From NCBI GenBank assembly GCA_030524055.1, contig JAUNHH010000004.1, positions 62,001-126,000 on the forward strand: a stretch of 64,000 nucleotides of DNA, read 5' to 3'. Position numbers and translations under genes: made by a program. Every line of letters starts with the position of its first letter. Positions within the stretch are counted from its first letter, which is position 1. Under the pieces are notes generated by a model. That model made no database searches. It saw nothing but the letters and a program-made list of their open reading frames with translations, and was not told the origin of the DNA. The DNA comes from Actinomycetaceae bacterium (lineage in GTDB: Bacteria > Actinomycetota > Actinomycetes > Actinomycetales > Actinomycetaceae). Of the stretch, positions 8,273 to 64,000 are shown piece by piece.

Positions 8273-8324
8273 ATAGACGAGGGCGGGGCCGGAATATATT
8301 ACCCCGCCCCGCCCTCGTCTATTT
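8271..8324. terminator. Bidirectional terminator made of an inverted pair of the repeated word
   Basis: An 18-bp perfect stem (8271-8288 with 8307-8324) encloses an 18-base loop between the convergent PNP and MalY genes. Each arm carries a full copy of the over-represented word: CGAGGGCGGGGC at 8278-8289 on plus and 8306-8317 on minus, both preceded by GA. The arms extend beyond the word through AAATA/TATTT, giving A and T tracts on both sides suited to termination in both directions. Confidence 0.8.
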
Positions 8325-8326
8325 CT

Positions 8327-9505
8327 CTACTTTTCTGGCAGAGCTGACACGATACGATCAACAATATCCAGGCTGGCTTCTAAGCTGCAGGCAAGATTGA
8401 CGCGAATCCACTGATTCCAGTCTTCCCCCAGGGTCTTTCCTGCATTAACGGCAACCCCTGCATATTCACGAATATAGGTGGCCGGTTGGAGATCCCCGAA
8501 ATCGTGATTCTGCATTCCCCACCACGTTAAATAGGTGGCTTGAGGGGGAGTGTAGTCAATATTGTGAGTCGATAGAATATGCTGAATGCCGTGTGTGTTC
8601 TTGCGAATAAGAGCAATCACTTCATCGAGCCAGGCTTCGCCTTTCTCATAGGCAGCAATAGTGCCTAACACACCCAGAGAAACAGGATAGTCATCAACTC
8701 CATGGGGAATCCCATCCCAGCGTGCACGCAAATCTGGATCGGTCAGAATAACTTGGGCATTAGGTAATCCCGCTGTATTCCATCCTTTTGTTGCCGCAGT
8801 TGCGGTGACAGTATGGGCAGCAAATTCTTCCCCAAGGCGTGCATAGGAAATAAAGGGTGTCTCATCGAGAATCAGAGGCGAATGGATTTCATCGGAGAAA
8901 ACCAGTGCGTCATAACGGGACACCACTTCATACACGGCGCGCAATTCTTCTTCGCTGAGAACTCGACCTGTCGGATTCCAGGGGTTACACAAAATGACCA
9001 GGCCAGCACCTGCCTTTAAAGCGTCTTCAATCCGCGTCAAATCAAGGCGCCATCCGACCCCACCAGCATGAACGCCATGCAGTGAGGGAACTTCAATGAC
9101 TCGGCGATTGAGCAGACCAGGGATTGTCAGGAAAGGCATATACGCAGGGGTAGGCACAATCACCGCAGATCCAGGCTTGGTCAAGTGCTCGATTGTTTTC
9201 ACGAGGGCGGGCAGCACTGCAGGAACAGAGCGCACCGCGTCAGGGGAAATATCCCAGCCGAAACGGCGGGCTTGGAAATTCGCGGTGGCTTCTTGAAGAC
9301 GCGGAGTCAGCCACGGCGGTGGGTAACCAAGAAAACCGTCGTGAATAGCTCGGGTAATGGCTTCTTCCACTTCGGGGGCTGTGCCAAAGTCCATTTCCGC
9401 AACCCACGCTCCAAGAGTGGGGGAACCATCAGAACGTGTGATCCCCGTCCATTTGAGGGACCCGGTTGCTCTCAGGTGCTCTGTGGTAAAGGTGCGGATA
9501 GGCAT
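8327..9505 (-). CDS. MalY/PatB-type PLP-dependent C-S lyase (aminotransferase class I/II fold)
   Basis: 392 residues on the minus strand. Family marks are WVAEMDF near the N-terminus (MalY/PatB proteins have W-x-A-[D/E]-M-D-F), GYPPPWL, NPWNPTGRVLS, SDEIHSPLI and the PLP-lysine segment ATKGWNTAG with Lys at about residue 240. These enzymes cleave cystathionine or cysteine conjugates to pyruvate, ammonia and a thiol, and some double as regulators. The ATG at 9505 is preferred over an in-frame TTG at 9517 because GGGAGA stands six bases before it. The gene is monocistronic and convergent with the PNP gene, and shares its bidirectional terminator. A near-copy of the repeated word lies inside at about 9201. 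Confidence 0.9.
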   Translation of the reverse strand: MPIRTFTTEHLRATGSLKWTGITRSDGSPTLGAWVAEMDFGTAPEVEEAITRAIHDGFLGYPPPWLTPRLQEATANFQARRFGWDISPDAVRSVPAVLPALVKTIEHLTKPGSAVIVPTPAYMPFLTIPGLLNRRVIEVPSLHGVHAGGVGWRLDLTRIEDALKAGAGLVILCNPWNPTGRVLSEEELRAVYEVVSRYDALVFSDEIHSPLILDETPFISYARLGEEFAAHTVTATAATKGWNTAGLPNAQVILTDPDLRARWDGIPHGVDDYPVSLGVLGTIAAYEKGEAWLDEVIALIRKNTHGIQHILSTHNIDYTPPQATYLTWWGMQNHDFGDLQPATYIREYAGVAVNAGKTLGEDWNQWIRVNLACSLEASLDIVDRIVSALPEK

Positions 9506-10116: not shown

Positions 10117-10128
10117 GCCCCGCCCTCG
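10117..10128 (-). repeat. Repeated word CGAGGGCGGGGC, intergenic copy
   Basis: Exact minus-strand copy, preceded by CA, in the 54-base gap between the SUKH gene and gltX. It has no inverted partner, so it is not part of a hairpin. Confidence 0.9.
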
Positions 10129-11749: not shown

Positions 11750-11761
11750 CGAGGGCGGGGC
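11750..11761 (+). repeat. Repeated word CGAGGGCGGGGC, intergenic copy
   Basis: Exact plus-strand copy in the long gap after gltX. It is one of only two exact copies not preceded by A (here T). Confidence 0.9.
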
Positions 11762-12294: not shown

Positions 12295-14715
12295 ATGCAC
12301 ACCCGCCGACCAGGGCTTTTCCTGACCGGACTCCTTGCCGGAGCCCTTTTGGGCACCGCCCTCGTACCCTCTAGTCCAGCGGCCCACGCCGCTACTGGTC
12401 TGGAAGGATGGGACCCCGGCAATATCATTAGCGACGCCAATATGTACGGCTCAGCTGTGGCTTCCTCCCTATCTGATCAGCAGATCCAGGACTTCCTCAA
12501 TGAAAAAGGAGCCAATTGCGTAGGCGGCCCCGATGGGTCCGACTGTCTAAAAGACGCCACTTTCACCACCAATACCGTTCCCGCTTCCCAATGGTGCACC
12601 GGTGCCTATGAAGGTGCCGCTAATGAAAGTGCTGCATCGATCATTGGTAAAGCTGCCCGCGCCTGCGAAATCTCACCCAAGGTGCTCCTCGTCCTTCTCC
12701 AAAAAGAGCAAGGCCTTGTCACCACCACCTCGCCAACGGCCACAAAATACGCCAAGGCGACCGGTTTTGGCTGCCCTGATGGCCAACCCTGTAAAAATCA
12801 ATTCGCTGGATTCCCTCAGCAGGTCTACTCCGCGGCTTCACGCCTCCAGCAATACCGCCTGCAGCCAAACTCCTTTAACTTCCGTGCGGGCATGACGACC
12901 ACTGTCCGCTTTAACCCCAATGCGTCCTGTGGCGGACAAAGCGTCAGCATTGCCAATGCTGCCACTGCGGGCCTCTACAACTACACGCCTTTTGTGCCGA
13001 ATAAGGCCGCGCTCGATGCTGTGGCGGGCACAGGCGATGCTTGCTCGGCATACGGAAACCGCAACTTCTACCGCTACCACTCACTGTGGTTCGGACAGCC
13101 TAATGTCGGCACCCCAGCGCCAGCCCCCCAAACCCCTGCGGATCCTGTCGAGCCGCCAAAACAAGTGGGCCGCCCCGCGGAACCGGCAAAGCCCGCCCCT
13201 GAAGGCCCGAAGGTCCTCACCGACACTGCGACCCGCCCCAAACAAGATCTGACCGGCGATAACCGCGGTGACATTCTCGTGAATAAAGACGGGCGTGCCC
13301 ACATTGTTGAGCCCAGTGTTCCCTCCGGCGATCGCACAACGTCAACTATTACTACTGGCGAGCGTTCCGGTTGGGGCTGGAACCCCACGCGCACTATTGG
13401 CGTGGGCGACTGGGACGGCGACTCCTCTGCGGACCTAGTGTCGTGGCGAGCCAATGGCATCCTCGTCCAATACCGCCTACGAGACGGCCAGTGGCAGCCT
13501 GCTCGCCAGATCGGCCGTGGGTGGAATGGTTTTGACGCTGTTTTCGGTGGAAGTGACTGGGATGGCGACGCTAAGCCAGACCTTCTTGCCCGCTCGGCCC
13601 ACAATGGTGACCTACATCTGTACCCCTCGAATGGGCGCGGTGGCTTTGAAGCCCCACGAAAGGTTGGCGCCGGCTGGCAGGGCCTGACTAACCTCAGCAT
13701 CGTTCCCGCCTACACGGGTGGGCGCCCCGCGGTGACCGCAGTTGACCAGCAGGGACGCCTACGTATTTACGAGGGCGATGGCCGCGGCGGATTCACCACG
13801 AACTCGATTCTTGGACCCGGGTGGAATGTGATGACATCCCTGGCTGGGGTTGCTGATCACAACGGCGATGGCCGTGGAGATATTGTGGCCGCCGCCCGCA
13901 CAGGTGAGCTCTACCTTTATGTCACGAATGCGACCACCCTGTCCCGCACAGCGGCCAATAACCAGGTGGAACGGGTGAGCACACTTGCCCCCACTGGCAC
14001 TGCCGGAGGCAATCGCCTCTATGGCGCCACCCCAACGGGCACTATCCACTCCGTTGACCTTGCCTCAACGACTGTCGCTGGCCAGCGGCCCGCCCGCGAT
14101 ACAGGAATCGCGATGTCAGATGGCGACCAGGTGTTGCCTGTTGGACTGTGGGATCACGACAATCATGCCGACATTATTAAGGTCAGCGCCGATGGTCGCG
14201 TGACCCTACACCGTGGCAACGCTAATGGTGGATTTAGCGGCGGGGAAGAGATTGCCTCTGGTTGGGCCTATACCCAGGTGATCCCCGTCATGGGGTGGGC
14301 AGGTAATGACCAGCCTGGCCTCGTTGGCTGGAATCAGAGCACTGGCGACGTTGTCCTTCACAGCGCAGAAGGAACGGGCGCGATTACTGCGCCAGTCACT
14401 ATTGGTAAAAACCTGACCTGGGCGGATCGCATTGTTGACGGTGGGAACTGGTCTGGAGCCCCCGGCCCACAACTTTTAGCCCGCCGCGCCTCAGATGGAG
14501 CGTTGATGCGGATTGCCTCAACGACTGCTGGCCTCACTATCGACCAGCCGCACCAAATTGGACGCGGATGGGCTGGACTCGATGTGTTTTCGCTCGGAGA
14601 TATGAATGGAGATGGTCGCGATGATCTGGTCCTTAAGGCCAGCGACGGGGTTTTGACTCTCTACACCGGTAATGGTGCAGACGGGTTTGGACCAATCACC
14701 AATCTCGGACGTTAA
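12295..14715 (+). CDS. Secreted lysozyme-like cell-wall protein with FG-GAP repeat tail
   Basis: 806 residues from the ATG at 12295, chosen because GGAGG lies four bases upstream; the frame is open further but without support. The signal peptide is clear: HTRRPG, a hydrophobic stretch, then SSPAAHAATG. Residues 35-265 form a Cys-containing domain with LLVLLQKEQGLV and FPQQVYSAASRLQQYR, a pattern seen in actinobacterial proteins annotated as lytic-transglycosylase or haemagglutinin-like; the Glu of KEQG is a plausible catalytic acid (inference). A Pro-rich linker (about 265-315) leads to roughly ten FG-GAP/VCBS blades with D-x-[N/D]-G-x-x-D calcium loops (DWDGDSSADL, DHNGDGRGDI) and recurring GxGWxG motifs. 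The protein would act outside the cell on peptidoglycan. It is followed at 65 bases by a PGRP amidase carrying the same kind of tail. Confidence 0.8.
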   Translation: MHTRRPGLFLTGLLAGALLGTALVPSSPAAHAATGLEGWDPGNIISDANMYGSAVASSLSDQQIQDFLNEKGANCVGGPDGSDCLKDATFTTNTVPASQWCTGAYEGAANESAASIIGKAARACEISPKVLLVLLQKEQGLVTTTSPTATKYAKATGFGCPDGQPCKNQFAGFPQQVYSAASRLQQYRLQPNSFNFRAGMTTTVRFNPNASCGGQSVSIANAATAGLYNYTPFVPNKAALDAVAGTGDACSAYGNRNFYRYHSLWFGQPNVGTPAPAPQTPADPVEPPKQVGRPAEPAKPAPEGPKVLTDTATRPKQDLTGDNRGDILVNKDGRAHIVEPSVPSGDRTTSTITTGERSGWGWNPTRTIGVGDWDGDSSADLVSWRANGILVQYRLRDGQWQPARQIGRGWNGFDAVFGGSDWDGDAKPDLLARSAHNGDLHLYPSNGRGGFEAPRKVGAGWQGLTNLSIVPAYTGGRPAVTAVDQQGRLRIYEGDGRGGFTTNSILGPGWNVMTSLAGVADHNGDGRGDIVAAARTGELYLYVTNATTLSRTAANNQVERVSTLAPTGTAGGNRLYGATPTGTIHSVDLASTTVAGQRPARDTGIAMSDGDQVLPVGLWDHDNHADIIKVSADGRVTLHRGNANGGFSGGEEIASGWAYTQVIPVMGWAGNDQPGLVGWNQSTGDVVLHSAEGTGAITAPVTIGKNLTWADRIVDGGNWSGAPGPQLLARRASDGALMRIASTTAGLTIDQPHQIGRGWAGLDVFSLGDMNGDGRDDLVLKASDGVLTLYTGNGADGFGPITNLGR

Positions 14716-14780: not shown

Positions 14781-17360
14781 ATGATGAATAGACGACGCTC
14801 AGCTGCGATTGGAGTTGGCACCGCCCTCGTATGTGCGTTGGTTGCCCCCAATACAGCCCCCGTTGTGACTGCGGACTCGCCCGCTATCCAGGCGGCCATT
14901 TCTTCCGCGGACGGTTCTGCAGTGAACCTTGGCGCCGTTAACGACGCCTCTGACATTCAAGACGTGACCGGCGGCGTAGACCCCGTGGAAACGACTGTGA
15001 AAATGGATGTCGCCGTCGCGCCGGAAGGGTACACCAAGACCGCTGCCGAAAGTGAAGGGCAAGCAGAAGCAAAACGCGACCAAGTTGTCGAAGTTTCCTC
15101 CTCCGATAAGGAGTCATCGAACGAGGACGGTGCTGGAGCTGCCAAGGCTCCCAGTGGCACAGCCAACACCGCCCCTGTGGCTTTTAAGGTCGAAGAGGGC
15201 GATGACCCTGCCGATGAGCAGTCTGCTGGCTCTGATGCCCCTGCACAATCCGGTGCCTCTGATACTGCCCACAGCGGCGCCCAGTCTGGCGCAGACTCTG
15301 CCGCGAGCGCTGCCGGTACCGGAACCGCTGCTGACCCGAATGTTCCCTCTGAAGAGTTGTCTATTGTTCGTCAGCCCATTTCTTCTGAGATGGTGATTAT
15401 GGGCGTGACCTTGCCGGGTATGAAATATGAGCCGGGAATGACTTTCTCGTATCGTGCCCTTGATGATGGTTTCTGGGGTGAGTGGGTCACTTTGGATATT
15501 GCTGAGCCGGACGCCGATGTGGACCTGGCGAAAGCTGAGGCAGGTACTGATCCGACACCGCTGGTGAATGTGGATCAGATTGAAGTGGTGGCTCGTAGCG
15601 CCGATGGTCGGGCAATTCCTGGTGCTGAGCTTTCTATTGTGGATCCGATGGGCAATAAGAGCCCGGCGGCTCTGGATATTCCCAGTGTGGAGGAAGTTGC
15701 GGGTGAGGCAGCCCAGTCTGGTGGCGCCGATTCTGCCGCTAGCGGTGCGAGCGAGTCACAGGATGACTCGGCGGGTGCTGAAGACAAGCCTGCGGAGGCT
15801 GGCGATGATGCCTCCGAGGGCGCTAAGACAGAGACTCCGAAGACAGGTGACACTGTGGCCGATCAGGATTCTGATGCCAGTGGCGCTGTTGGCAAGGGTC
15901 AAGCGGGGAGTGCTTCTGCTGCCGTGTGGCGTGATGCCGAGCAGGGAGGCGCTGTGCCGACCGCTATGAATCCGGCGCAAACGGTGTATGACGCTGAGTT
16001 CCATGGTCTGAAAATCACGACCCGTAAAGGGTGGGGTGCGGATGAGTCCATGTTGGATTGGGGTCCGGATGAAAATGATATTCAGGGCGCCGTTATCCAC
16101 CACACTGCTGGTTCCAATAACTACACCCAAGATCAGGTTCCTGGCTTGATCCGCGGTATCTACAACTACCATGCGAACACCCTAGGGTGGGGCGATGTGG
16201 GCTACCACCTGCTGGTTGATAAGTTTGGTGGCGTCTGGCAGGGACGCGCTGGCGGCCTCTTTAAGGGCGTGTATGGTGCGCATGCCTATGGCGCTAATGG
16301 TCAGACTTTCGGTATTTCTGTTCTGGGTGACTACACCTATGACGCTCCGCCGCCTGCCGCTATGGATTCTGTAGCCAAAGCTGTGGCGTGGAAACTGCGT
16401 CTACATGGCATTACCAATATTGACCGTCGCATTAGTGTTCCTGGCGCTGCTCAGGGATGGCTGCCTGTGGTTTCTGGTCACCGTGATGTTGGTGGGACTG
16501 CGTGCCCTGGCCAGGCTTTCTATAACCGCCTGGGTGACGTGCGTGCGTCCATTAAGCGTTACCTTTCGAATAACCCGGCTGGTGGCGCTAAGGCACAGAC
16601 TCCTGTGACTCCTCGTTCTGGCCTGTATTGGGAAAACCGTGTGCAGGCCGGCCGCGGCTGGAATGTGGGCCAGACCCTTTCTGGTGGCGACTTTGAAAAG
16701 AATGGTCGGAGCGACGCTCTGCTGGTGAAGAATGACGGTTCGATGTGGCTCTACCCTGGTGCTGCGGGGCTCGGCTTTGAACGCCACCGTCAAATTGGCC
16801 GCGGCTGGCAGGTGATGGACCAGATTAATGCGGGCATTGACTTTAATAATGACGGCAATACTGATGTGATTGCTCGTGAGAAGTCCAGCGGACACCTGTG
16901 GTTGTATCCGGGTAATGGCAAGGGTGGTTTCCTTGCGCGCGCCCGTATTGGTAGCGACTGGAGGGGCTATTCCGGGATTTTCACTGCGGCGAATCTGGTG
17001 GGCGACAAGTCCGCAATTTTGGCCGTGGAGTCCGGGTCAGGACGTCTGACTGCTTTTGTTAGTGATGGTCGCGGCGGCATTGGTCAGACAGTGCGTTATG
17101 GCGTGGGCTGGAATCAGATGCGTTCGATTACCTGGGTGGGGGACCGCACGGGTGATGGTGTCAATGACGTGGTTGCAGTGGATAACAAGGGTTTCCTCTT
17201 CCTCTACCCGAATTTGGGCGCTCGCGGTTTTGCTGCGCGTTCTTCGGCGGGCCAGGGGTGGCAGGGCTTCTCGCCGCTGCGCACAGTCAATGGTGATGGC
17301 GTGTTCTGGACTGTGGATGGTAATGGCGCGCTGTGGCAGTACCGCCTGATGCGGGGCTGA
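14781..17360 (+). CDS. N-acetylmuramoyl-L-alanine amidase (PGRP type) with FG-GAP tail
   Basis: 859 residues with a signal peptide (MNRRRSAAIG then a hydrophobic run to VVTADS). Residues 70-390 are Ala/Ser/Asp/Glu-rich low-complexity sequence around a small folded block (about 190-285). The amidase-2/PGRP domain spans about 410-600: VIHHTAG (438-444) and SGHRDVGGTACPG (from 565) supply the zinc-binding His residues and Cys. It should cut the amide bond between MurNAc and the stem peptide. The C-terminus has FG-GAP blades (NDGNTDVIARE, GDGVNDVVAVD) with the same GRGW motifs as the preceding protein. AAGGGA precedes ATG-ATG. Codon choice changes visibly near 15355, from C-ending to T-ending codons, which hints at a mosaic origin. 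A strong terminator follows. Confidence 0.9.
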   Translation: MMNRRRSAAIGVGTALVCALVAPNTAPVVTADSPAIQAAISSADGSAVNLGAVNDASDIQDVTGGVDPVETTVKMDVAVAPEGYTKTAAESEGQAEAKRDQVVEVSSSDKESSNEDGAGAAKAPSGTANTAPVAFKVEEGDDPADEQSAGSDAPAQSGASDTAHSGAQSGADSAASAAGTGTAADPNVPSEELSIVRQPISSEMVIMGVTLPGMKYEPGMTFSYRALDDGFWGEWVTLDIAEPDADVDLAKAEAGTDPTPLVNVDQIEVVARSADGRAIPGAELSIVDPMGNKSPAALDIPSVEEVAGEAAQSGGADSAASGASESQDDSAGAEDKPAEAGDDASEGAKTETPKTGDTVADQDSDASGAVGKGQAGSASAAVWRDAEQGGAVPTAMNPAQTVYDAEFHGLKITTRKGWGADESMLDWGPDENDIQGAVIHHTAGSNNYTQDQVPGLIRGIYNYHANTLGWGDVGYHLLVDKFGGVWQGRAGGLFKGVYGAHAYGANGQTFGISVLGDYTYDAPPPAAMDSVAKAVAWKLRLHGITNIDRRISVPGAAQGWLPVVSGHRDVGGTACPGQAFYNRLGDVRASIKRYLSNNPAGGAKAQTPVTPRSGLYWENRVQAGRGWNVGQTLSGGDFEKNGRSDALLVKNDGSMWLYPGAAGLGFERHRQIGRGWQVMDQINAGIDFNNDGNTDVIAREKSSGHLWLYPGNGKGGFLARARIGSDWRGYSGIFTAANLVGDKSAILAVESGSGRLTAFVSDGRGGIGQTVRYGVGWNQMRSITWVGDRTGDGVNDVVAVDNKGFLFLYPNLGARGFAARSSAGQGWQGFSPLRTVNGDGVFWTVDGNGALWQYRLMRG

Positions 17361-17489: not shown

Positions 17490-18560
17490 CTATTGGCGGG
17501 CGTAGGTTTGGATTGTCTCTACGGCACGTTGAGCGGCACATCCGTCCCCATAGGGGGCTTGATCGGTGTCAGCAGGGCGGGGCCGTGATGCTGCTTCGAC
17601 GAGGGCGGGGCCTGGTTCCACGAGGGTATTCCACCCTAGTTCTACTGTTTCTACCCATTCGGTTTCAGGGCGCACGGTTGTACAGGGGACCCGCAATAAA
17701 AAGGCTTCTTTTTGCAGGCCGCCAGAGTCTGTAATGACGCCGCGGGCGTGTAATGCTGAGGCAATGAGATCCGGATAGGCAATAGGGGAGTGCAGGCGAA
17801 TATTTCCTCGCTCTAAATCCACCCCATGCTCTTTAGCTTTTGCGACCAGACGCGGGTGGGCAAGGAGAACCACAGGATGATCCACCTGCGCGAGGGAGTC
17901 AATCACAGCGGTAAGGCGCTCAGCAGAATCGGTATTTTCAGCGCGGTGAATAGTCGCTAAAGAATAGTGGCCGTTGGCGACACCTAAAGACTCACCCACA
18001 GGGCTGGGCTTGCCCGCCACAGTAGCGCGCACTTTCAACAGCACATCTGTCATCACATCGCCAACCACTACAGTGCGTTCTGCCAGGCCTTCATGAGCGA
18101 GGTGTGTAGCTGCCACATCGGTGGGGGCAAGGAGAAGATCGGCTGCGTGATCGGTCAAAATCCGATTATGTTCTTCCGGCATGGCCCGGTTAAAAGAGCG
18201 CAGCCCAGCTTCTAAATGAGCCAGCGGCAGATGCATTTTCACTGCGGAAATAGCAGCGGCCAGGGTGGAGTTCGTATCCCCATAGACCAACACCCAGTCG
18301 GGGGACAGGGAAGGCAGAGCCTCGTCAAGTGCAGCCAGCATTGCACCGGTTTGTTGGCCTTGAGAGCCAGACCCTACCCCAAGGTGAATATCTGGGGCCG
18401 CAATGCCTAGATCACTAAAAAACACATCAGAGAGCATTGGGTCATAGTGTTGGCCCGTATGAATAATCAGGTGTTCAACTCCCACCTGCTTGCAGGCGTC
18501 AGCAATAGGGGCGAGTTTGACGAATTGTGGGCGGGCGCCCACCACAGAGACCAGACGCAT
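17490..18560 (-). CDS. wecB: UDP-N-acetylglucosamine 2-epimerase (non-hydrolysing)
   Basis: 356 residues from the ATG at 18560, which gives the canonical N-terminus MRLVSVVGARPQFVKLAP. A longer frame upstream lacks family similarity. Further hallmarks are IIHTGQHYD, YGDTNST, HLEAGLRS, PEEHNRILTDH, HRAENTDS and DSGGLQKEAF. The enzyme interconverts UDP-GlcNAc and UDP-ManNAc in the cytosol. Its natural partner, a UDP-ManNAc-type dehydrogenase, is encoded at 41.8 kb, so ManNAcA in the surface polymer is plausible. It is divergent from the GT2/ABC/GT4 operon, sharing a 92-base promoter region. An exact copy of the repeated word (17600) lies in frame and is read as Gly-Pro-Ala-Leu-Val. A further partial copy is at 17571. 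Confidence 0.95.
   Translation of the reverse strand: MRLVSVVGARPQFVKLAPIADACKQVGVEHLIIHTGQHYDPMLSDVFFSDLGIAAPDIHLGVGSGSQGQQTGAMLAALDEALPSLSPDWVLVYGDTNSTLAAAISAVKMHLPLAHLEAGLRSFNRAMPEEHNRILTDHAADLLLAPTDVAATHLAHEGLAERTVVVGDVMTDVLLKVRATVAGKPSPVGESLGVANGHYSLATIHRAENTDSAERLTAVIDSLAQVDHPVVLLAHPRLVAKAKEHGVDLERGNIRLHSPIAYPDLIASALHARGVITDSGGLQKEAFLLRVPCTTVRPETEWVETVELGWNTLVEPGPALVEAASRPRPADTDQAPYGDGCAAQRAVETIQTYARQ
17600..17611 (+). repeat. Repeated word, copy inside wecB
   Basis: Exact copy preceded by GA, antisense to the gene. The gene reads it as GPALV near the C-terminus, a poorly conserved stretch of the epimerase. A shorter 11-base match begins at 17573. Confidence 0.9.
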
Positions 18561-18652: not shown

Positions 18653-19786
18653 ATGACGCAGCCACTTGTTGATGTGGTGATTCCCGTTCACCGCGTAGAG
18701 CGTCCCATTGAAAGGGCCGTCGCTTCCGTTATTTATGACGAGGGCGGGGCTGCTCCTCTTGTGCGTGCCATTGTGGTCACTCACGGCCTTACGGCCGCCG
18801 ACTTTGGGGACCGCCTTGAAGGATTCGGGCGGGGCCTGCTGGTTGTGGAACACCATGATGGAATCCCATCCCCTGCGGGCCCACTCAATGCTGGTATTGA
18901 TGCGGCCACAGCTACCTGGGTGAGCTGTATGGGATCTGACGACTTCTTAGAAGAGGGGGCACCTGCCGCGTGGGAAGCCCACGTGGAGCGACGCAACCCT
19001 GATGTGCTGGTTTTGCCTGTGGTGGATCAAGCCAGCGGCCAGATCGATATTCCTAGCGTCAGACACGGCAGGGTAGAAAACCTGGATCCCATTAAAGATC
19101 GCCTTTTTTACCGGACCGGGCCGATTATGCTGGTCCGTCGTGACCTGCTGAACACCCATGATATTCGGATGGCCGCAGATTTGCGGACAGGTGAAGATCT
19201 TGCCTACTCCATGAAAGTGTGGACCCACGCACAGGTCATTGACCTACTCAACCCTGAGAAACCCTGCTATATCGAAGGGAATGATGGGGGAGAGCGTGTC
19301 ACGCATACCCGTTTCCTCATGGATGAACTCGTGGCGCCTGCAGCTGGCCTGGCCACACAGCAATGGATCGCAGACCTTGATGAGAAAATGCGCACGGCAT
19401 TAACGGTGCGGATTTTCCGTCACTCCCTCATCCCCGCATTGAAGGCACGTATTGCCGATATTAGCGACGAAGAAATCAGCACCCTCAGAGAAGCGATGCG
19501 CGCGTGGATACGTCTTGCCCCCGCCGTCCAAGGCCCCTTGTCTATGGCTGAACACCATGCTGTCACCACAGTGCTCAGTGGAGCCACACGCGAGGAGATT
19601 GCCACAGCAACTGCCGGCTTGTCCGGCCCGCCCTCGCCAAAGAAAATCCTGCCCACCTCGCTCGCTGGCCTCGCCCACCCGGATAACCGTCTTCGTCATT
19701 TCCTTGTTGGCCGTGCCCGCCCACAGACTTGGCGGGTACACTTCTCGCCTATGAACGCTGACAGTCGTGGAGATGTGGAGTCGTGA
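18653..19786 (+). CDS. Family 2 glycosyltransferase
   Basis: 377 residues, cytosolic. The N-terminal GT-A fold is clear: VDVVIPVHRVERPIERAVASV, then PLNAGIDAATATWVSCMGSDDFL, where SDD is the metal- and nucleotide-binding acidic motif (about residues 92-100). Acceptor and sugar are unknown. The ATG has GAGGAG six bases upstream. The stop overlaps the GTG of the ABC exporter (GTGA), so the two are translationally coupled and this is the first gene of a GT2-ABC-GT4 operon. An exact copy of the repeated word encodes DEGGA at residues 29-33, in a loop between the first two strands where other GT2 proteins vary. This suggests the word was accepted as an insertion or by drift in a tolerant position. 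Confidence 0.85.
   Translation: MTQPLVDVVIPVHRVERPIERAVASVIYDEGGAAPLVRAIVVTHGLTAADFGDRLEGFGRGLLVVEHHDGIPSPAGPLNAGIDAATATWVSCMGSDDFLEEGAPAAWEAHVERRNPDVLVLPVVDQASGQIDIPSVRHGRVENLDPIKDRLFYRTGPIMLVRRDLLNTHDIRMAADLRTGEDLAYSMKVWTHAQVIDLLNPEKPCYIEGNDGGERVTHTRFLMDELVAPAAGLATQQWIADLDEKMRTALTVRIFRHSLIPALKARIADISDEEISTLREAMRAWIRLAPAVQGPLSMAEHHAVTTVLSGATREEIATATAGLSGPPSPKKILPTSLAGLAHPDNRLRHFLVGRARPQTWRVHFSPMNADSRGDVES
18739..18750 (+). repeat. Repeated word, copy inside GT2 gene
   Basis: Exact copy preceded by GA, read in frame as Asp-Glu-Gly-Gly-Ala. A related partial copy (GGGCGGGGCCTG) follows at about 18827. Confidence 0.9.
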
Positions 19787-22646: not shown

Positions 22647-22662
22647 CGGGAAATAGCGTAGA

Positions 22663-22697
22663 CCCGCCCTCGTCAATTCCATTCACGAGGGCGGGGC
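22663..22697. terminator. Hairpin from an inverted pair of the repeated word, convergent junction
   Basis: CCCGCCCTCGT (22663-22673) pairs with ACGAGGGCGGG (22685-22695) over 11 bp with an 11-base loop. The right arm is an exact copy of the word (22686-22697); the left differs at one base. It sits between the GT4 stop (22646) and the end of the minus-strand asparagine-synthetase-like gene. No long T-run is present, so termination is inferred from position. Confidence 0.65.
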
Positions 22698-27640: not shown

Positions 27641-27662
27641 TGCCTAAGGATCGCGGTAAGTG

Positions 27663-51951: not shown

Positions 51952-51963
51952 CGAGGGCGGGGC
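51952..51963 (+). repeat. Repeated word with half an inverted partner, 3' of wzt
   Basis: Exact copy preceded by GA. CCTCGT at 51938-51943 pairs with ACGAGG at 51951-51956, so a degenerate second copy forms a small stem, as in the two full inverted pairs elsewhere. Confidence 0.85.
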
Positions 51964-55869: not shown

Positions 55870-57583
55870 CCAGATTCGCGCAGCGATCCCCGCCCTCGTA
55901 TTTGCTGTTGCTATTGCGGCAGCGGATGGTTTGGCGCAGCACATTAGCGCTGTAGTCGGGGAATTGTCAGCACCTGCGGGAGTAGCGCCATTTGCGCGGG
56001 CACTGCTTATTGCCTTGCCGGCAGCTGTACTTTTCTATGGGATTCACCGCCTTTTAGGTCGATTAGAAGAGTCCTCATCGACGAGGCCGGGGCGCGAAAA
56101 ATCGTCAAAGGAGGATTATCGGGCGAAATCTCGCCGATGGGAAAATCTCCTAGCTGCGTTGATTCCTTTCCTTTTGTGGAGCGTTCTTTTTGCGCATTTC
56201 TGGCCGATCGCTTCAATGAATGACACGGAGTGGATCCTCAAAGACCCCTGGGGTGCCTCTATTCAACATCCCCTGGCCTATGGCCTGCTTTTGCGTGCTG
56301 TCGTTGACCTCTTTACCTATATTGGTGGGTCGCTGTTGGTGGGGGTAGTGGCAGCAGCACTTCTGCAAATGCTGGCATGGGCAGGGATTATGGCGCTAAT
56401 GGTCGATACTTTGCGCCTTTTGGGTGTGGACTATCGGGTGCGCGCAGCATTTATTGCTTATGGTGCCTTATGTCCGCTAATCGCCAACTACGCCTTTGCG
56501 TTGGTGAAAGACTCACCATTTATGTTGGCGATTGCTACTACCGGTGCCATTCTTGTTCGCATTTGGTCAACCCGAGGTAAAGCACTGCGACGGCCTCTTT
56601 TTCTCTTTATTGCATTATGGGTTCTGCTCACTTTAGCGGTAATGCGGAATAATGGGCTACTAGTGCTGATTGTATTGACTCCGCTGATTATTTTCTGGGC
56701 AAAAAAGGCGAGGATTCATGCGGCAGGTCTGGGCGTTATTGCCATTGTTTTGGCCCTGATTCCGGGGCAGTTATCGGCACACTTTGTTGGCTCTCCACGC
56801 TATGTCGAATCGGTGGCTATTCCCCTGCAAATTGTTGGCCATGTGGTCACCTATGATCGCGAATGCCTGCCTGCGGCGGAAGTAGAGTATTTTTCCTCCA
56901 TTATTCCTTTTGACACGTGGGTCGAGGTTCGTGAACCAGGCAGTGTGGATTCGACGAAATATGCGCAGGGCTTTAGTGAGGGCTATTTGGAGGACACCAG
57001 GGGGGAGTTTCTTTCTCATGTGGGGGCAGTTGTGCGCGCCTGCCCGGCCTCGTCACTTCAAGGATGGCTTGCCCATACCAGCGCATATTGGCGTCTTGAC
57101 CCACCGGTCGTGGGGATGACTGGTCAGTCTGTTTTTACCTCGGCAGTGACAAACTACCCGTCGAATCGTGACCAACTTATTGCTGGCTGGGCACAAAATG
57201 GCGTTGTTAATGAGTCATTGTTGCCTGCCCCGGCACGCAATATTGCAACGGATTTATGGACCCTGCTGATCCACCTTATTCCTGGGCCCGGATTTTGGCT
57301 GTGGGTGGCTATTTTCCTTGCGGCACTATTTGCAGTGCGTGGGCGCAAAGAATGGATTCCTCTATTATCGCCAACATTCCTTGTGTGGGGAACTCTCTTA
57401 GTTGCGTCGCCTGCGACATTCCCCTTCCGCTATGTCGCATTTGTGATGCTCACTCTTCCTTTTGCGGCTGCGATTCTGCTGGGAACGTCGCAGGTGCGTC
57501 GATCTGCTTCTCACTCGGAAGAGCCTGCCACTTCTCAAGTTACTCATACCATCCCGGATTACTCTGCGGCGCTGCATCCATAG
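55769..57583 (+). CDS. Polytopic membrane protein, second DUF6020/GT-C-like copy
   Basis: Open frame of 604 codons; homologous in plan to 1220-3130, with about eleven hydrophobic spans and an early loop, NDTEWILKDPWGASIQHPLAYGLLL, comparable to the DS...HHP loop of that copy. A large outer loop carries YDRECLPAAEVEYFSS and SAYWRLDPPVVGM. The frame begins at ATG 55769 inside gtrA, an implausible 101-nt overlap. A CTG at 55862, with GGAG six bases upstream and 8 nt before the gtrA stop, fits the protein better; no ATG, GTG or TTG is nearby. Following GtrB- and GtrA-like genes, it is a good candidate for the GT-C enzyme that transfers the flipped sugar (inference). A near-copy of the repeated word at 55887 encodes IPALVF. 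Confidence 0.75.
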   Translation: MPWGLERCVTISGTGGFSPIKESLPQHLEHLLNSQIRAAIPALVFAVAIAAADGLAQHISAVVGELSAPAGVAPFARALLIALPAAVLFYGIHRLLGRLEESSSTRPGREKSSKEDYRAKSRRWENLLAALIPFLLWSVLFAHFWPIASMNDTEWILKDPWGASIQHPLAYGLLLRAVVDLFTYIGGSLLVGVVAAALLQMLAWAGIMALMVDTLRLLGVDYRVRAAFIAYGALCPLIANYAFALVKDSPFMLAIATTGAILVRIWSTRGKALRRPLFLFIALWVLLTLAVMRNNGLLVLIVLTPLIIFWAKKARIHAAGLGVIAIVLALIPGQLSAHFVGSPRYVESVAIPLQIVGHVVTYDRECLPAAEVEYFSSIIPFDTWVEVREPGSVDSTKYAQGFSEGYLEDTRGEFLSHVGAVVRACPASSLQGWLAHTSAYWRLDPPVVGMTGQSVFTSAVTNYPSNRDQLIAGWAQNGVVNESLLPAPARNIATDLWTLLIHLIPGPGFWLWVAIFLAALFAVRGRKEWIPLLSPTFLVWGTLLVASPATFPFRYVAFVMLTLPFAAAILLGTSQVRRSASHSEEPATSQVTHTIPDYSAALHP

Positions 57584-58343: not shown

Positions 58344-59066
58344 CTATTGGTTCTCTGTGCTAATAATGCGTGCCCCTTCGGCGGTGGCAATTGATTCCAT
58401 GCTGCTATCACTCGCGTCCGTATCAACAAAAACCACAGATGTTCCTGCCAGCCAGGCGCGCAGTGCGAGCGCAGCACTATCAGAAAGTCCGTCATTCACA
58501 CCATTGCTACAGCAGTCGCGGCTGACCTTCATCACCACCCGCTTTGCCTCGCGGATTTCCGCCTCGGCCCCGCCCTCGTCAAATGCGACTGACCTATCGC
58601 TCGATCCTTCAACCTCCACCAGATCCGACTGGGCCATGAGTTCGCTGAGACTGTCAAGCATCCCATCAGGAATGGCCCCATTCCACCGGAAGGCGAGGGG
58701 AGCGAGGTCATGCAGGAGAACCCAGGCGCCATTCTCGGCCCCTTCAATCGCCGCCCCACTGTCAGCCCGATCGCTGACTACTAGATCCGCCTCGCTCGCC
58801 ACCTCGACCTGAGTCCACCCCATTGCCCAGGCACTCACCTCCCACATGAGTCTTTGCCAACTACAGGGCATGTCCAGAACATAGGTTCCCGGCCGATCCT
58901 CGCCCATTAGTGCAGGTGAGAGGTCTCCGCCGAGGAGGTTGACAGCTTTCGTTATCCATCGAGCGGCCGCTCCACCTGTCAATTCGCTACGGTACTGCCC
59001 ATACCATGTTAGTGCAGGCCCATCTATGTGCTGGAGTGCCTGCAATGTGAGGGAGAGTCGATTCAT
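58344..59066 (-). CDS. TIGR03089 family protein (AMP-binding-domain relative)
   Basis: 240 residues from the ATG at 59066, where similarity starts (LTLQALQHIDGPALTWYGQ). Upstream extension of the frame is spurious. The stretch ERxELTGGAAARWITKAVNLL-type start (here RSELTGGAAARW), then GTYVLDMPCSWQRLMWEVSAWAMG and DLVVSDR, fits the TIGR03089 group, an actinobacterial protein resembling an N-terminal fragment of acyl-CoA synthetases but without the ATP-binding motifs. Function unknown; it is often found near whiB2 and wall-polysaccharide genes, as here. It is divergent from whiB with a 237-base control region between. An exact repeated word encodes DEGGA in a variable stretch (58567). Confidence 0.75.
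   Translation of the reverse strand: MNRLSLTLQALQHIDGPALTWYGQYRSELTGGAAARWITKAVNLLGGDLSPALMGEDRPGTYVLDMPCSWQRLMWEVSAWAMGWTQVEVASEADLVVSDRADSGAAIEGAENGAWVLLHDLAPLAFRWNGAIPDGMLDSLSELMAQSDLVEVEGSSDRSVAFDEGGAEAEIREAKRVVMKVSRDCCSNGVNDGLSDSAALALRAWLAGTSVVFVDTDASDSSMESIATAEGARIISTENQ
58567..58578 (-). repeat. Repeated word, copy inside the TIGR03089 gene
   Basis: Exact coding-strand copy preceded by GA, in frame as Asp-Glu-Gly-Gly-Ala. Confidence 0.9.
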
Positions 59067-59600: not shown

Positions 59601-62600
59601 GCAGCGTGCCTACAGGCACAGCAGCACTCATTGTTACCCGAGGAGTTAGCCCTCACCTTGCTGAGGTGCTCAGGGCTGTTTCCTCACAAACCCTCAAACC
59701 CGACGCCATTGTTGTCATTGACGCCGGGGGAGGGCAGGATACGGGTCATGCCCCACTAAGCCGTGAGGCGCTGCCTCAATCAATACTGCTTCACCAGTCA
59801 CGGCGTGCGGCCACACTTGGCCAGGCTATCGACCATGCGGTTGAAGGTAACCACGGAGAATTCCTCCTGGGAGCCAGATGGTGGTGGATACTCCACGACG
59901 ACTCCATTCCTGACCCCAACTGCCTCGCTTCCTTGTGTCAAACCGCCGAGCGAGGCCGTTCTATTGCCGCCGTCGGCCCGAAACAATTTGACGCCGATGG
60001 CGTGCGCCTCCTGGAAATCGGCATCCTTGCCACGCGCAGCGCCCGGCGCTTAGAGCGCGTAATGCCCGGTGAAATTGACCAGGGCCAATATGACTCGGTG
60101 ACCGATGTCCTTGCGGTGGGCACAGCAGGAATGCTGCTCGACCCTGCCGCGTGGAAAGAGATCGGTGGTTTTGACCCAGCTTTAGGTCCTTTCGGAGATG
60201 GCCTTGACCTGGGGCGCCGGCTCCACTGCGCAGGCTACCGCGTAGTCGCCTCCCCGAAAGCACGTATCCTCCACCATCGTGCGTCACTGCCCAATTCCTA
60301 TAGAGAACGCCGCCGCGCCCAGTTATATAACTGGGCGAAGGCTGTGCCCTGGTGGGTTGTTACCCCGCTGCTGATTTCCCTGGCCTTCGTCTGCCCGGGA
60401 CGTGCCCTGCTTTTCCTTCTGCGCGGAGAAGTTGCCAATGCGCGCGACGAAATATCGGCATGGCTGTCACTGATTTCCTCAACAGGCCACCTTTTCGCAG
60501 CCCGCCATCAGGCAGCCCGTACTGCGACAGTGCCTCCTAGTGCGCTGCGCCCCTTAGAGATATCTGGCCGTGAAATATCTGAACGGCGCACCCGTATCCG
60601 CCGAGCACGTCGCGAGGAAAATAGCGTTGCCCCCGACCCGCAACTTCGTGCTGCACGCGACCGTATTCGCGGGAAAAACGCCGTTTCCCTGGCCTCGATT
60701 CTGGCGGTGACTGCGGTGATAGGCCTAGTGATGTGGCCACCGTCGCAGGTATTGACCGCTGGTGCATGGGGCGTATTGCCCAGTACTTTCGGTGATTTTT
60801 GGAGGGTCGCATGGGCGACATGGACCGCGGGCGGTTCCGGTTGGAATGCGCCACCTGACCCCCTTCTTCCTCTCCTTACCCTGATTCTTACGCCTCTACG
60901 TTTCCTGGGCATGACTCCAACCCTTGCGGCGTCGTGGCTGCTCACCCTTGCTCTTCCCCTCAGTGCTTTGGGTGGATGGCTATTCGCCGCGCGGTGGACC
61001 TGTGCCCGCCATTGGCGGATCCTCGCGGCTCTGCTGTGGGCGGCACATCCGGCATTACTAGAGGCGGCAGGGCGGGGAATGCTTGCCCCAGTCCTGGTTC
61101 ATATTGCCCTGCCTTTCCTTGCAGCCGCATGGAGTGCTCTTCTTGGGATTCGCCCCGCCCTCGTCGTCGAAATTGCGCATGAAGCGGTGGAGATTCCACG
61201 AACGCGGTGGAGCGGAGCTCACGGCGCGGCAGCTCTGGCTGGTCTTGTCATCGCTGGTGGGCACCCGCTTCTTCTCCTGCCTCTTGGGGTATTGGCTGTC
61301 TGCCTGGGCGTATGGCGACGGATCTGGGCGCCCCTGGTCTGCCTTATTCCTGGAGCACTTCTCACGGCTCCAACTTTTGCGGCAGCCGCCCAAAACCCCA
61401 CTTCCTGGGAAGCTTTACTGACCCCGGGTGGCCTGCCTGACGCAGTCGCTCGGGTGTCAACATGGCAACTTCTTCTGGGTGTACCCGCAAGTTCGGCTTC
61501 GCTCTTCCTGGACGCTACCTACTGGGTGGTGGGCGGACTTTTTGCCCTGTGGGCTCTTGTCGCTGTGGCAGGCGTGCCACAGATGACGCCGCTGAGTTTC
61601 CTCGCGCGCGTGGGCGGCATCGCCCTCGTAGCCCTTGCCTTCGCTGGTGGAGCGGCGGCCCGCGCTATCCCCGTAGGCATTGACGCGGGCCATATTGCTA
61701 CCGCATGGAGTGGAACCTACCTTTCTATTGCTGGCCTCCTCATGCTGACCGCCGCAATGATGGGTATGCATTTTTCTTCCCTTCCCATTGACGAGGGCGG
61801 GGCCGAAGGCGAGAAAACACTGACACTCACCCCAATGGGGACCCCACTGACTCAGGGCCTGGCAGCTCTGGGATGCGTTGTGGCACTACTTGCGATGAGT
61901 GCCTTGCCTGCCACTCGCGGAGACTCTAATGACCACAGGGTTTATACTGGCCAGTCACCTATTCCTGCCGTGTCACAGCAAGGACAGGAATCTGAACGAG
62001 TTGGTCGTGTTCTCGTATTGTCACCGGGAGCGAATTGGGATCTTAATGTTGACGTCTGGCGTTGGGCTGGCCCCAGCCTCGCCGATGCTTCTCCAGTTGT
62101 GCGCCACCGTTTCCTTGCCTCTACATCTGACCCTGATAGCGCTGGCAGCGGCGTCACAGTCTCCTCTTTGGCTATGGCTTTGACGTCAGCCCCAGACACG
62201 AAAGTCATTACCTCTCTTGCCCTTCTCGGCTTTGACACGATTGTGGTGAAAAATCCTGAGGCGCTGGCGGCACGTGTTGACGCGCTCGGCCGTGCTCCCG
62301 GACTCGAAAAAGTTGGCGCCACTGATGCAGGAATGGTGTGGCGTATCCGCCCTGAGGGGCGTAGTCCCGGACGAGTCCATCTCCTCCACAGCAATTCAGC
62401 AATGACTCTGCCCTCCGGCCCGATTTCTGTCGCTACTCAAATCTCGGTGAGTTCTGCCCCTGCCACCATCCTCCTGAGTGAACGTTCCGACCCGGCGTGG
62501 CAAGCCACCGTTAATGGCACTCCTTTAGAGACCCTCACTCACCCGGATTTCCCCTGGATGCAGGCCTTTGCTGCACCACAATCAGGATATGTGCAGATTA

Positions 62601-62698
62601 GTCATTCCCCCTGGTGGAAATGGCCGTGGCGTATAGCGGTCGGCCTGGCTGTTGTGGCCTGCCTTGGTGCCGCCGTACCCGTTAGGAGGCGAGGATGA
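59597..62698 (+). CDS. Giant GT2-membrane fusion protein
   Basis: 1033 residues. Residues 1-240 form a GT-A domain: AALIVTRGVSPHLAEVLRAV, DAIVVIDAGGG, WWWILHDDSIPDPNCL (acidic site) and GTAGMLLDPAAWKEIGGFDPALGPFGDGLDLGRRL. From about 250 to 900 there are about a dozen hydrophobic spans, then an outer C-terminal domain with WQATVNGTPLETL and a last span. Large actinobacterial fusions of this type are linked to arabinogalactan or other wall-glycan synthesis. The gene lies between whiB and DUF5719 with overlaps at both ends (GTGTGA, ATGA). Two exact repeated words (61152, 61792) encode RPALV and DEGGA in loops between membrane spans. Confidence 0.82.
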   Translation: MSSVPTGTAALIVTRGVSPHLAEVLRAVSSQTLKPDAIVVIDAGGGQDTGHAPLSREALPQSILLHQSRRAATLGQAIDHAVEGNHGEFLLGARWWWILHDDSIPDPNCLASLCQTAERGRSIAAVGPKQFDADGVRLLEIGILATRSARRLERVMPGEIDQGQYDSVTDVLAVGTAGMLLDPAAWKEIGGFDPALGPFGDGLDLGRRLHCAGYRVVASPKARILHHRASLPNSYRERRRAQLYNWAKAVPWWVVTPLLISLAFVCPGRALLFLLRGEVANARDEISAWLSLISSTGHLFAARHQAARTATVPPSALRPLEISGREISERRTRIRRARREENSVAPDPQLRAARDRIRGKNAVSLASILAVTAVIGLVMWPPSQVLTAGAWGVLPSTFGDFWRVAWATWTAGGSGWNAPPDPLLPLLTLILTPLRFLGMTPTLAASWLLTLALPLSALGGWLFAARWTCARHWRILAALLWAAHPALLEAAGRGMLAPVLVHIALPFLAAAWSALLGIRPALVVEIAHEAVEIPRTRWSGAHGAAALAGLVIAGGHPLLLLPLGVLAVCLGVWRRIWAPLVCLIPGALLTAPTFAAAAQNPTSWEALLTPGGLPDAVARVSTWQLLLGVPASSASLFLDATYWVVGGLFALWALVAVAGVPQMTPLSFLARVGGIALVALAFAGGAAARAIPVGIDAGHIATAWSGTYLSIAGLLMLTAAMMGMHFSSLPIDEGGAEGEKTLTLTPMGTPLTQGLAALGCVVALLAMSALPATRGDSNDHRVYTGQSPIPAVSQQGQESERVGRVLVLSPGANWDLNVDVWRWAGPSLADASPVVRHRFLASTSDPDSAGSGVTVSSLAMALTSAPDTKVITSLALLGFDTIVVKNPEALAARVDALGRAPGLEKVGATDAGMVWRIRPEGRSPGRVHLLHSNSAMTLPSGPISVATQISVSSAPATILLSERSDPAWQATVNGTPLETLTHPDFPWMQAFAAPQSGYVQISHSPWWKWPWRIAVGLAVVACLGAAVPVRRRG
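61152..61163 (-). repeat. Repeated word, copy inside the giant GT2 gene
   Basis: Exact copy preceded by GA on the minus strand, antisense to the gene, read as Arg-Pro-Ala-Leu-Val. Confidence 0.9.
61792..61803 (+). repeat. Repeated word, second copy inside the giant GT2 gene
   Basis: Exact copy preceded by GA, read as Asp-Glu-Gly-Gly-Ala in a hydrophilic loop. Confidence 0.9.
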
Positions 62699-64000
62699 CT
62701 TACAGCCCCCGAAAATTTGCTCTCTCAAGCACCATCCTTATTGCCGCTGCCCTTGCTGGCGCGGCCAGCGTTGTTGGCGTGGGAAAGGGCGTTTCCACGC
62801 CAGAAAATGTCATCCACGCTGTGCCGTCAACAGCTGCACGAACAGAAGCGACCCTGGGCTGCCCTGGCGCAATCCTTGACCCTTTTACTGTCAGTGACGC
62901 GAATCAGCGCGCAGTGCCCTCTATGGACACTTCGCCATCGGATGCACAGTCACACAATCAGTCAGAATCTCCCGCCTCATCTGCTGCCCAGTCGGCCATG
63001 TCGGGCAGGGCAGTAGAGGCTCCCGCGTCTGGTGCGCCTGTCGATCGCCCAATGTCCGCGCGCGCAACCTCCCCAATGTCGGGGGCGCCAATGTCCGGTA
63101 CACCCTCGGCGATGTCTGGAGCTGACACTCGGGCCTCAGGTGGCGATACCGCTGCCTCGGGCGCACAAAGTGGCGCCCTCATGTGGGCATCCACCCAACC
63201 TACCCGTACCTGGAGCCCAGCCACCTCGACCTTAAGCGGAGTGCGTCATAGTGAAGGGGCACCACCAACGGGTGCTGTCATCGCTGGTTATGGTGGCGGA
63301 GAATTGCGCTCCCTGACCATTTCAGGGTGTAAAGAAGCGGCGACAGAACAATATTTTGCGATTGGCTCCACCACTCTTGGTGAAGACCTGGTCTTAACCC
63401 TTGTTAACCCATCATCGCTACCCACTCAGGTTGATATTACGGCCTTTAGCAGCATTGGCCCCATTTCGGTGCCACCTCTGGAGATTACCGTGCCCGCCGG
63501 GCAAAGTGCGGTGGTCCTGCCAGCCTCATGGATTGTGGAAGAACAGCATCCTGTCCTGAAAATTGCAGCTGATGGGCCGGGTGTTGTTGCCTGGATGCAA
63601 ACTTCAGGTATGCAAGGAGAATTGCCGCTGGGCACAGCGCGGGTTCCCTCCACAACCCCGGCGACGCAGCATGTGATCCCCGGCCTCGTTCCAGGAAAAA
63701 ATGCCACTGCCCGTGTCTTTGTTCCCGGCCCTGATCCTGCCCATGTGACCCTCAGCGTCTCGGGTGAGGATGCAACGGTCCCCCTCGGTGGGGGAGAAGC
63801 TGATATTGACCCCCAGGCGGCCCTTGATATTCCTATCGGCTCCGTTCCGAAAGGCGTATCTGCCCTTGGGGTCTCCTCAACCGTTCCCGTTGTGGTTCAG
63901 GTCCTTCACAGTGGCGAGGGCGGGGCTTTCGCTTCAACAACCTCTACCTGGGGCTCACGTGATGGTCTCAGTCCTTCAACGCCAGTGACTTCCGCGCGCC
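62695..64000 (+). CDS. DUF5719-type secreted protein (3' end missing)
   Basis: Open from ATG 62695 to the right edge without a stop, at least 435 residues. AGGAGGCGAGG stands directly before the ATG, which overlaps the previous stop (ATGA). N-terminal signal-anchor, then ATLGCPGAI (first conserved Cys). About 120 residues of Ser/Ala/Met-rich repeats follow (MSG recurring six or more times), then GELRSLTISGC and a series of strand-rich blocks, TLVNPSSLPTQVDITAFSSIG and VPAGQSAVVLPASW, as in DUF5719 proteins. The function of the family is unknown; its constant place next to whiB and wall-glycan genes suggests an envelope role. An exact repeated word at 63915 encodes GEGGA. The long MSG insert is unusual. 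Confidence 0.78.
   Translation, partial: MTYSPRKFALSSTILIAAALAGAASVVGVGKGVSTPENVIHAVPSTAARTEATLGCPGAILDPFTVSDANQRAVPSMDTSPSDAQSHNQSESPASSAAQSAMSGRAVEAPASGAPVDRPMSARATSPMSGAPMSGTPSAMSGADTRASGGDTAASGAQSGALMWASTQPTRTWSPATSTLSGVRHSEGAPPTGAVIAGYGGGELRSLTISGCKEAATEQYFAIGSTTLGEDLVLTLVNPSSLPTQVDITAFSSIGPISVPPLEITVPAGQSAVVLPASWIVEEQHPVLKIAADGPGVVAWMQTSGMQGELPLGTARVPSTTPATQHVIPGLVPGKNATARVFVPGPDPAHVTLSVSGEDATVPLGGGEADIDPQAALDIPIGSVPKGVSALGVSSTVPVVVQVLHSGEGGAFASTTSTWGSRDGLSPSTPVTSAR
63915..63926 (+). repeat. Repeated word, copy inside the DUF5719 gene
   Basis: Exact copy, preceded by GG rather than GA, read as Gly-Glu-Gly-Gly-Ala. Confidence 0.9.

Follow-up and report, generated by a model that had tools for sequence, protein, structure and literature searches.

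The closest described counterparts of the sequence treated here are the DNA uptake sequence (DUS) of the Neisseriaceae and the uptake signal sequence (USS) of the Pasteurellaceae. The DUS occurs in thousands of copies per genome, in dialects that follow phylogeny, and its inverted pairs have been linked to terminators (PMC3630211). The USS is a short, genome-enriched motif whose specific binding is the initial step of transformation, and a 2025 paper describes such words as known from two families only, both Gram-negative (PMC12616744). In the actinobacterium Micrococcus luteus, which has ComEA and ComEC, Flp pili are needed for transformation in place of a ComG cluster (PMC6370729). Here we report on a 12-base word, CGAGGGCGGGGC, found throughout a 64,000-nucleotide stretch of the genome of an Actinomycetaceae bacterium (GCA_030524055.1, contig JAUNHH010000004.1, positions 62,001 to 126,000; the whole stretch is referred to as the window) and far beyond it. 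Its distribution makes it quite probable that the word is the trace left in the genome by a DNA uptake sequence for self-recognition, convergent with DUS and USS.

Like the DUS, it is short, asymmetric and scattered, with phylogenetic dialects, permissive or intergenic placement and inverted, terminator-like pairs, and the ATT prefix before its core recalls the AT-DUS of Neisseriaceae, a comparison that is our own (PMC3630211). Its sequence is unrelated to GCCGTCTGAA with its CTG core, the core here being CGAGG (PMC3630211). It differs further in number (808 exact or 1344 relaxed copies rather than thousands) and in host, a Gram-positive member of the Actinomycetaceae in whose genus no N-methylated pilin was matched, so that no ComP-type receptor was seen. 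It appears to work like the DUS without being a member of the DUS family. With the USS it shares shortness and high enrichment, but not its sequence: the word has a G+C-rich core and, on one side, a short AT prefix, whereas the USS of Haemophilus influenzae has a 9-base core with AT-rich flanks. With M. luteus the host shares its place among the actinobacteria, ComEA and ComEC, and it has two Tad loci; the available excerpt of the M. luteus paper mentions no uptake word (PMC6370729), while one is seen here.

Abundance, composition and placement of the word

The window (G000:C3:62001-126000) belongs to a genome of 3.03 Mb in 47 contigs, 98.3% complete and with a G+C content of 0.549 (464 kb sample). 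This genome is labelled G000 in a set of 35 genomes of its genus, the others being labelled in the same manner; the genus is probably Schaalia or the Pauljensenia of GTDB. The exact word occurs 15 times in the window, nine times on the plus and six times on the minus strand, and every copy was recovered where a preliminary description of this DNA had placed it. An order-4 Markov model of the window predicts 0.04 exact copies. With up to one mismatch 31 copies were found, against a shuffle mean of 0.59 and at most 2 in 100 shuffles. The excess extends to the whole genome, which holds 808 exact copies (405 forward and 403 reverse) against two of the reversed word used as control, and 1344 copies of the relaxed form ACGAGGNCGGGG against 3 reversed. 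In 464 kb of G000, 103 exact copies compare with 0.30 expected from an order-4 Markov model. Counts near Markov expectation, which the preliminary description had named as damaging to its proposal, were thus not found.

Its details of the window largely held as well. Thirteen of the 15 exact copies are preceded by A and seven are intergenic (Table 1), as judged by open reading frames (ORFs) of at least 150 amino acids or, for the open-ended frame at 63915, by gene calls. The tally of "at least 11" one-mismatch copies rises to 16, with all eleven recovered and 12353, 14818, 19625, 21603 and 41605 added. Nine of the eleven coordinates stand as given; the other two are corrected from 22662 to 22661 and from 46829 to 46826.

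The consensus in G000 is approximately 5'-attgACGAGGGCGGGGC-3', of which CGAGG is the core held in common with relatives. Among 102 exact copies with full flanks in the 464 kb, the base 5' of the word is A in 89%, following a weak ATT prefix (A at -4 in 63%, T at -3 in 67%, T at -2 in 49%). Farther out preferences are weak, for example T at -9 in 45%, and the flanks are otherwise near background. One-mismatch 13-mers (n = 104) are altered at position 7 in 26 cases, at position 11 in 18 and at position 13 in 32, and within the CGAGG block in 3. Since this block is seldom altered while other positions vary, the unit is approximately attgACGAGGgCGGgGc, with CGAGG as its rigid part. The near-background flanks beyond the word indicate that it is not a mobile repeat, and the single repeat family with conserved flanks that had been named as the other damaging outcome is not seen. 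The motif is asymmetric and non-palindromic, whereas HIP1 is a palindromic octamer, and the earlier suggestion of a HIP1-like word can be set aside.

Genes in the 464 kb were identified with a home-made caller (86% coding) that missed some, for example at about 26.6-29.4 kb of the window. Allowing one mismatch, this sample contains 197 copies, of which 98 fall in genes, 94 between genes and 5 at edges, giving a density of 1.55 per kb outside genes and 0.24 per kb within, a 6.3-fold difference. Of the 99 copies not wholly coding, 92 could be assigned between two called genes: convergent gaps hold 40 (2.77 per kb), tandem gaps 35 (1.22) and divergent gaps 17 (1.08). Half of the coding copies (49) run in the sense of their gene and half (49) against it, and all six frames occur; their commonest peptide is DEGGA (15 of 98), which GACGAGGGCGGGGC can encode.

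All 22 pairs of copies within 80 bp of each other are inverted, 15 facing one way and 7 the other. The strand tends to switch from one copy to the next: of neighbours separated by 100 bp or more, 93 are opposite in orientation and 60 alike, with no same-strand run in the 464 kb. The spacing is also more even than random. Once close pairs are merged, the coefficient of variation over 153 gaps is 0.63, compared with 0.92 for random placement (minimum 0.74 of 2000) and 0.95 for class-preserving placement (minimum 0.80 of 1000).

Spelling and turnover of the word among relatives

The number of exact copies ranges from 0 to 808 across the 35 genus genomes, with none in G010, G016, G019, G022 and G029. 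When 12-mers were counted de novo in 17 genomes (464 kb of G000 and 100 kb of each other), a related spelling ranked top in seven (G000, G001, G005, G006, G013, G017 and G021); ACGAGGCCGGGG, for instance, was found 24 times in the G005 sample against 0.15 expected. A related 12-mer was present but not top-ranked in G004, G028 and, weakly, G016. The 12-mers of G002, G003, G009, G011, G015, G025 and G030 were unrelated, with related 10-mers nonetheless in G003, G009, G011, G015 and G025. In four further samples, CGAGGCCG was among the top 8-mers of G010, G019 and G022, but not G029.

The dialect base was called by counting CGAGGNCG outside genes, against a reversed control. It is G in G000 (104 of 140), G028 (24 of 39), G015 (18 of 28) and G017 (9 of 13); C in G001 (30 of 41), G005 (26 of 41), G006 (21 of 26), G013 (13 of 19), G021 (26 of 32), G010 (11 of 14) and G022 (12 of 16); and A in G025 (16 of 24). 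The signal was mixed or weak in G003, G004, G009, G011 and G030, and in G002, G016, G019 and G029 noncoding CGAGGNCG was no more frequent than the reversed control. When one mismatch is allowed, the complete dialect word has a higher density in noncoding than in coding DNA in 10 of 10 genomes tested, with 0 to 2 copies of the reversed form; copies are few, 7 to 15, in G017, G025, G013, G022 and G028. Close pairs of the full word in these ten genomes are inverted in 46 cases and direct in 5.

Counts of the relaxed form ACGAGGNCGGGG are 100 or higher in 18 of the 35 genus genomes, where reversed controls do not exceed 13. They stay at or below 63 in the 178 other family members, where reversed controls reach 29 and a slight excess is seen in some genera. 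Two genomes from other genera of the family, G160 and G148, have raised counts of the exact 12-mer (51 and 43, against 0 and 1 reversed), and G160 has only 11 copies of ACGAGGNCGGGG, which suggests a different base before the core. Among 396 genomes of the order, TTNACGAGGNCGNGG occurs 503 times in G000, 5-52 times in six other genus members and at most 13 times elsewhere. For viral contigs, at least 80 were listed with a single occurrence of a 14-mer each, which we read as chance.

Some candidates were not retained. In G016, CCGAGGCCG occurs at 18 places in 100 kb, all called coding, and was considered too weak to count as a dialect. The G029 candidate CCTTTGCCTCAG, examined as GAGGCAAAGG, was rejected because 8 of its 9 places belong to one tandem repeat inside a gene (L187:12859-13078; a 30-base unit, eight units bearing GAGGCAAAGG). 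Expectation-maximisation refinement of a position weight matrix yielded nothing in G011, G019, G029 and G030; it drifted to codon periodicity in G+C-rich genomes and was replaced by the noncoding-only counts. The counts also brought up unrelated sequences: 15 copies around the 12-mer CCCCTGATAGAC per 100 kb in G025 (L151-L155) and 17 copies of AACAGAGCGGAC per 100 kb in G015 (L096-L100), both possibly CRISPR or other repeats, and poly-C tracts in G003 (L111-L115), where CCCCCCCCCCCC occurs 55 times in 100 kb, counted with overlaps, possibly as phase-variable runs or assembly features.

The dialects were placed on a ComEC tree of 30 genomes, in which G001 and G010 have no row and five rows are unlabelled. 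The C dialect requires 2 changes, against a mean of 8.0 over 500 shuffles of which none came as low, with the reservation that five of its ten rows (G018, G020, G023, G024 and G027) were labelled from whole-genome counts, many ACGAGGNCGGGG and few CGAGGGCGGGGC, which do not distinguish C from A or T. The wordless label, given to G033 by counts alone, requires 3 changes (shuffled mean 4.8; 8 of 500), and all labels together, with G003 and G009 under G though weak, require 8 (shuffled mean 13.3; 0 of 200).

At the sites that could be aligned, few in number, words appear to change by substitution. An orthologous site in the ComEC locus of seven close relatives reads GCCCCGCCCTCGT, GCCCCGGCCTCGT or copies 1-2 bases off, within alignable flanks, and a second word site in this locus behaves in the same way. 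At the second Tad locus of G005, G006 and G021, nine word sites were compared and differ mostly by base substitution in aligned sequence; in one, a word of G021 stands where G005 and G006 differ at six bases within conserved flanks. Two G006 sites fall in gapped stretches, and for these insertion is possible. No synteny was found in the first 100 kb of G005, G006, G013 and G021.

Competence genes and competing explanations

The competence genes that had been proposed as a check are present: G000 encodes ComEA, ComEC, DprA, one prepilin peptidase (A24) and two Tad/Flp loci. ComEA, at G000:C46, matches SLBB and helix-hairpin-helix models over Pfam cut-offs, its start possibly clipped by the end of the locus. 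The ComEC beside it matches PF03772 and TIGR00360 over cut-off, with the ComEC_Rec2 model below; the gene adjoining the two is, we presume from its translation, holA. Within the genus, DprA was matched in 34 of 35 genomes and ComEC in 33; the misses are G008, which lacks both (70% complete), and G031, which lacks ComEC (560 contigs). TadA was recognised by T2SSE at both Tad/Flp loci, C19 and C44, and by TIGR03819 over cut-off at C19 only. DUF4244, TadE or Tad models match the pilin-like protein of C19 (5899-6150), one C19 and two C44 minor pilins. The names tadB, tadC, flp and tadE2 at C44, and those of the other Tad genes, are presumptive and follow from position. A gdhA-like gene adjoins the second Tad locus, and BLAST against plasmids was uninformative there.

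A DUS/USS-type word, the first candidate put forward in the preliminary description, fits the genome-wide excess, the use of both strands, the presence of a short AT-rich prefix only, and the noncoding and convergent enrichment, as well as the inverted hairpin pairs, even spacing, clade-linked dialects and within-word substitutions. In such a system, a surface protein of the competence apparatus, probably in or attached to one Tad/Flp pilus, would bind double-stranded DNA carrying the word. The pilus would deliver this DNA to ComEA, ComEC would import one strand, and DprA and RecA would recombine it into the chromosome. Word-bearing fragments would be taken up more often, and mutations that create or mend words would spread and be repaired by recombination, so that copies accumulate where genes tolerate them. 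Changes in the receptor would shift the spelling and give rise to clade dialects, and inverted pairs may have been put to secondary use as bidirectional terminators.

Several observations weigh against an uptake word. ComEC and DprA models also match in 10 and 11 of 14 control genomes, which makes them weak evidence that is not specific to transformable species, and both are still present in the four genus genomes without a noncoding excess. The N_methyl pilin model, which omits Tad pilins, had no match over cut-off in the 35 genus genomes. The five Tad minor pilins of G000 are not basic, with net charges of -2 to -8 beyond residue 60 (ComEA has -5, and two short pilins +1 and +2). No receptor was found among the pilins covered by these two analyses; other candidates were not searched. 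Class-preserving random placement can produce as many close pairs (mean 12.1, maximum 25), so these pairs are remarkable chiefly for their orientation and less for their count. In several G+C-rich relatives, genes hold the loose core CGAGGNCG at a higher density than the DNA outside them (6.21 per kb against 2.94 in G004), and the G label is unclustered by itself on the ComEC tree (5 changes; shuffled mean 5.6; 178 of 500). G002 has a second TadA match and no word. The literature on natural transformation found with Schaalia odontolytica, in a search that did not cover Actinomyces, showed by its titles nothing on transforming Schaalia; the available part of one paper deals with natural transformation in Saccharibacteria cultured with actinobacterial hosts, a Schaalia among them, and not in Schaalia itself (PMC10633639).

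The second Tad locus had been considered as the cause of the word, as five zero-copy genomes without a listed second strong TadA match seemed to point to a correlation. This was rejected, both on the evidence of G002 and because G010 and G022 carry the noncoding C signal without a listed second TadA.

Two further explanations would also place a scattered word on the chromosome. The binding site of an abundant protein (a nucleoid organiser, segregation protein or global regulator), unrelated to uptake, would also be compatible with the long, specific motif, the even spacing and the clade-linked dialects, which could track a co-evolving protein. However, the motif is asymmetric with both strands used equally, its density is high (1344 ACGAGGNCGGGG in the genome), and convergent gaps carry more copies per kb than divergent gaps, unlike the sites of promoter-proximal regulators. 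The nucleoid-protein site that the preliminary description had also listed keeps some points in its favour, and we regard it as unlikely. A recombination word of the Chi type, or a polar segregation word like KOPS, would be in line with the copy number and over-representation, which are typical of Chi. Both are marked by strand polarity along the chromosome, whereas in the 464 kb neighbouring copies alternate more often than not (93 against 60) and are evenly spaced, coding copies are balanced (49 and 49), and the word is enriched outside genes. The equal genome-wide use of both strands agrees with the earlier doubt about polar signals, and an explanation of this kind is very improbable.

The remaining explanations start from the pairs or from composition. 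If the word were primarily a transcription terminator or attenuator, inverted pairs would form hairpins between convergent genes, in agreement with the uniform inversion of close pairs, the enrichment in convergent gaps and the strong hairpins at 8278-8317 and 22661-22697. Yet the 22 pairs can account for no more than 44 of the 197 copies, 98 of these copies fall within genes in both orientations, and a terminator needs complementarity, not one fixed sequence; most copies are single, which speaks against termination as the primary role and leaves it improbable. Scattered copies with inverted pairs also resemble REP elements at first sight, and the DEGGA-encoding capacity of GACGAGGGCGGGGC, together with the gene-dense loose core of several G+C-rich relatives, could hint at an artefact of codons or composition. 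Selfish or mobile repeats, whether REP, MITE or a palindrome family, would not be expected to have unconserved flanks or to differ at aligned sites by substitutions. Nor would an artefact be expected to occupy all six frames, to be 6.3-fold denser in noncoding DNA, or to yield a full word denser outside genes in all ten genomes, some with few copies, and nearly absent when reversed. We give this explanation almost no weight. The tests for polar signals, for mobile repeats, for artefacts of codons and for palindromes like HIP1 were all negative.

Copies in the window and wider significance

Table 1. Exact and one-mismatch copies of the word in the window
Feature	Position	Strand	Remark
exact word	8278..8289	+	intergenic, in a convergent gap; first arm of inverted pair, folding to -41.3 kcal/mol (z -9.2)
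exact word	8306..8317	-	intergenic; second arm of inverted pair with 8278
exact word	10117..10128	-	intergenic by ORF list
exact word	11750..11761	+	intergenic; preceding base T, not A
one-mismatch word	12353..12364	-	
one-mismatch word	14818..14829	-	
exact word	17600..17611	+	within ORF
exact word	18739..18750	+	within ORF
one-mismatch word	19625..19636	-	
one-mismatch word	21603..21614	-	
one-mismatch word	22661..22672	-	first arm of inverted pair in a convergent gap, folding to -31.9 kcal/mol (z -5.9)
exact word	22686..22697	+	intergenic; second arm of inverted pair with 22661
one-mismatch word CGAGGCCGGGGC	24754..24765	+	spelling of the C dialect of relatives
one-mismatch word CGAGGCCGGGGC	24790..24801	+	spelling of the C dialect of relatives
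one-mismatch word	25812..25823	+	next copy (up to one mismatch) at 32155
exact word	32155..32166	-	within RHS-repeat gene
exact word	35855..35866	-	intergenic, between divergent genes
one-mismatch word	37624..37635	-	
one-mismatch word	40023..40034	+	
one-mismatch word	40075..40086	+	same strand as 40023; pair folds no better than shuffles, z -1.1
one-mismatch word	41605..41616	-	
one-mismatch word	45946..45957	+	
one-mismatch word	46826..46837	-	
exact word	48980..48991	+	within ORF
exact word	51952..51963	+	intergenic, between convergent genes
one-mismatch word	55887..55898	-	
one-mismatch word CGAGGCCGGGGC	56082..56093	+	spelling of the C dialect of relatives
exact word	58567..58578	-	within ORF
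exact word	61152..61163	-	within ORF
exact word	61792..61803	+	within ORF
exact word	63915..63926	+	within frame running off the window; preceding base G, not A

The longest gap between copies in the window overlaps a likely polymorphic-toxin island on the minus strand (26649-35744). It comprises an RHS-repeat protein of 1815 aa (30297-35744), an Imm1-domain immunity protein (26649-27446) and, between them, two ORFs without a Pfam match. The G+C content of 28-32 kb is 0.500, the lowest among the 4 kb bins of the window.

In the open-licence literature, judged by titles and the start of abstracts, nothing was found on an uptake word in Actinobacteria. It seems likely that the word represents a third independent uptake-word system, the first outside the Neisseriaceae and Pasteurellaceae, in which actinobacterial Tad/Flp competence would select self DNA by ACGAGGNCGNGGC and the dialects could act as mating barriers between species. 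Such a third case, in a Gram-positive host that lacks an outer membrane and in which no N-methylated pilins were detected, would make it possible to ask if the uptake machinery by itself gives rise to uptake words. It would also predict natural transformability of the members of the genus, and adding the word to DNA would then offer a practical route to their transformation. The dialects, in turn, would constitute a natural experiment on species barriers.

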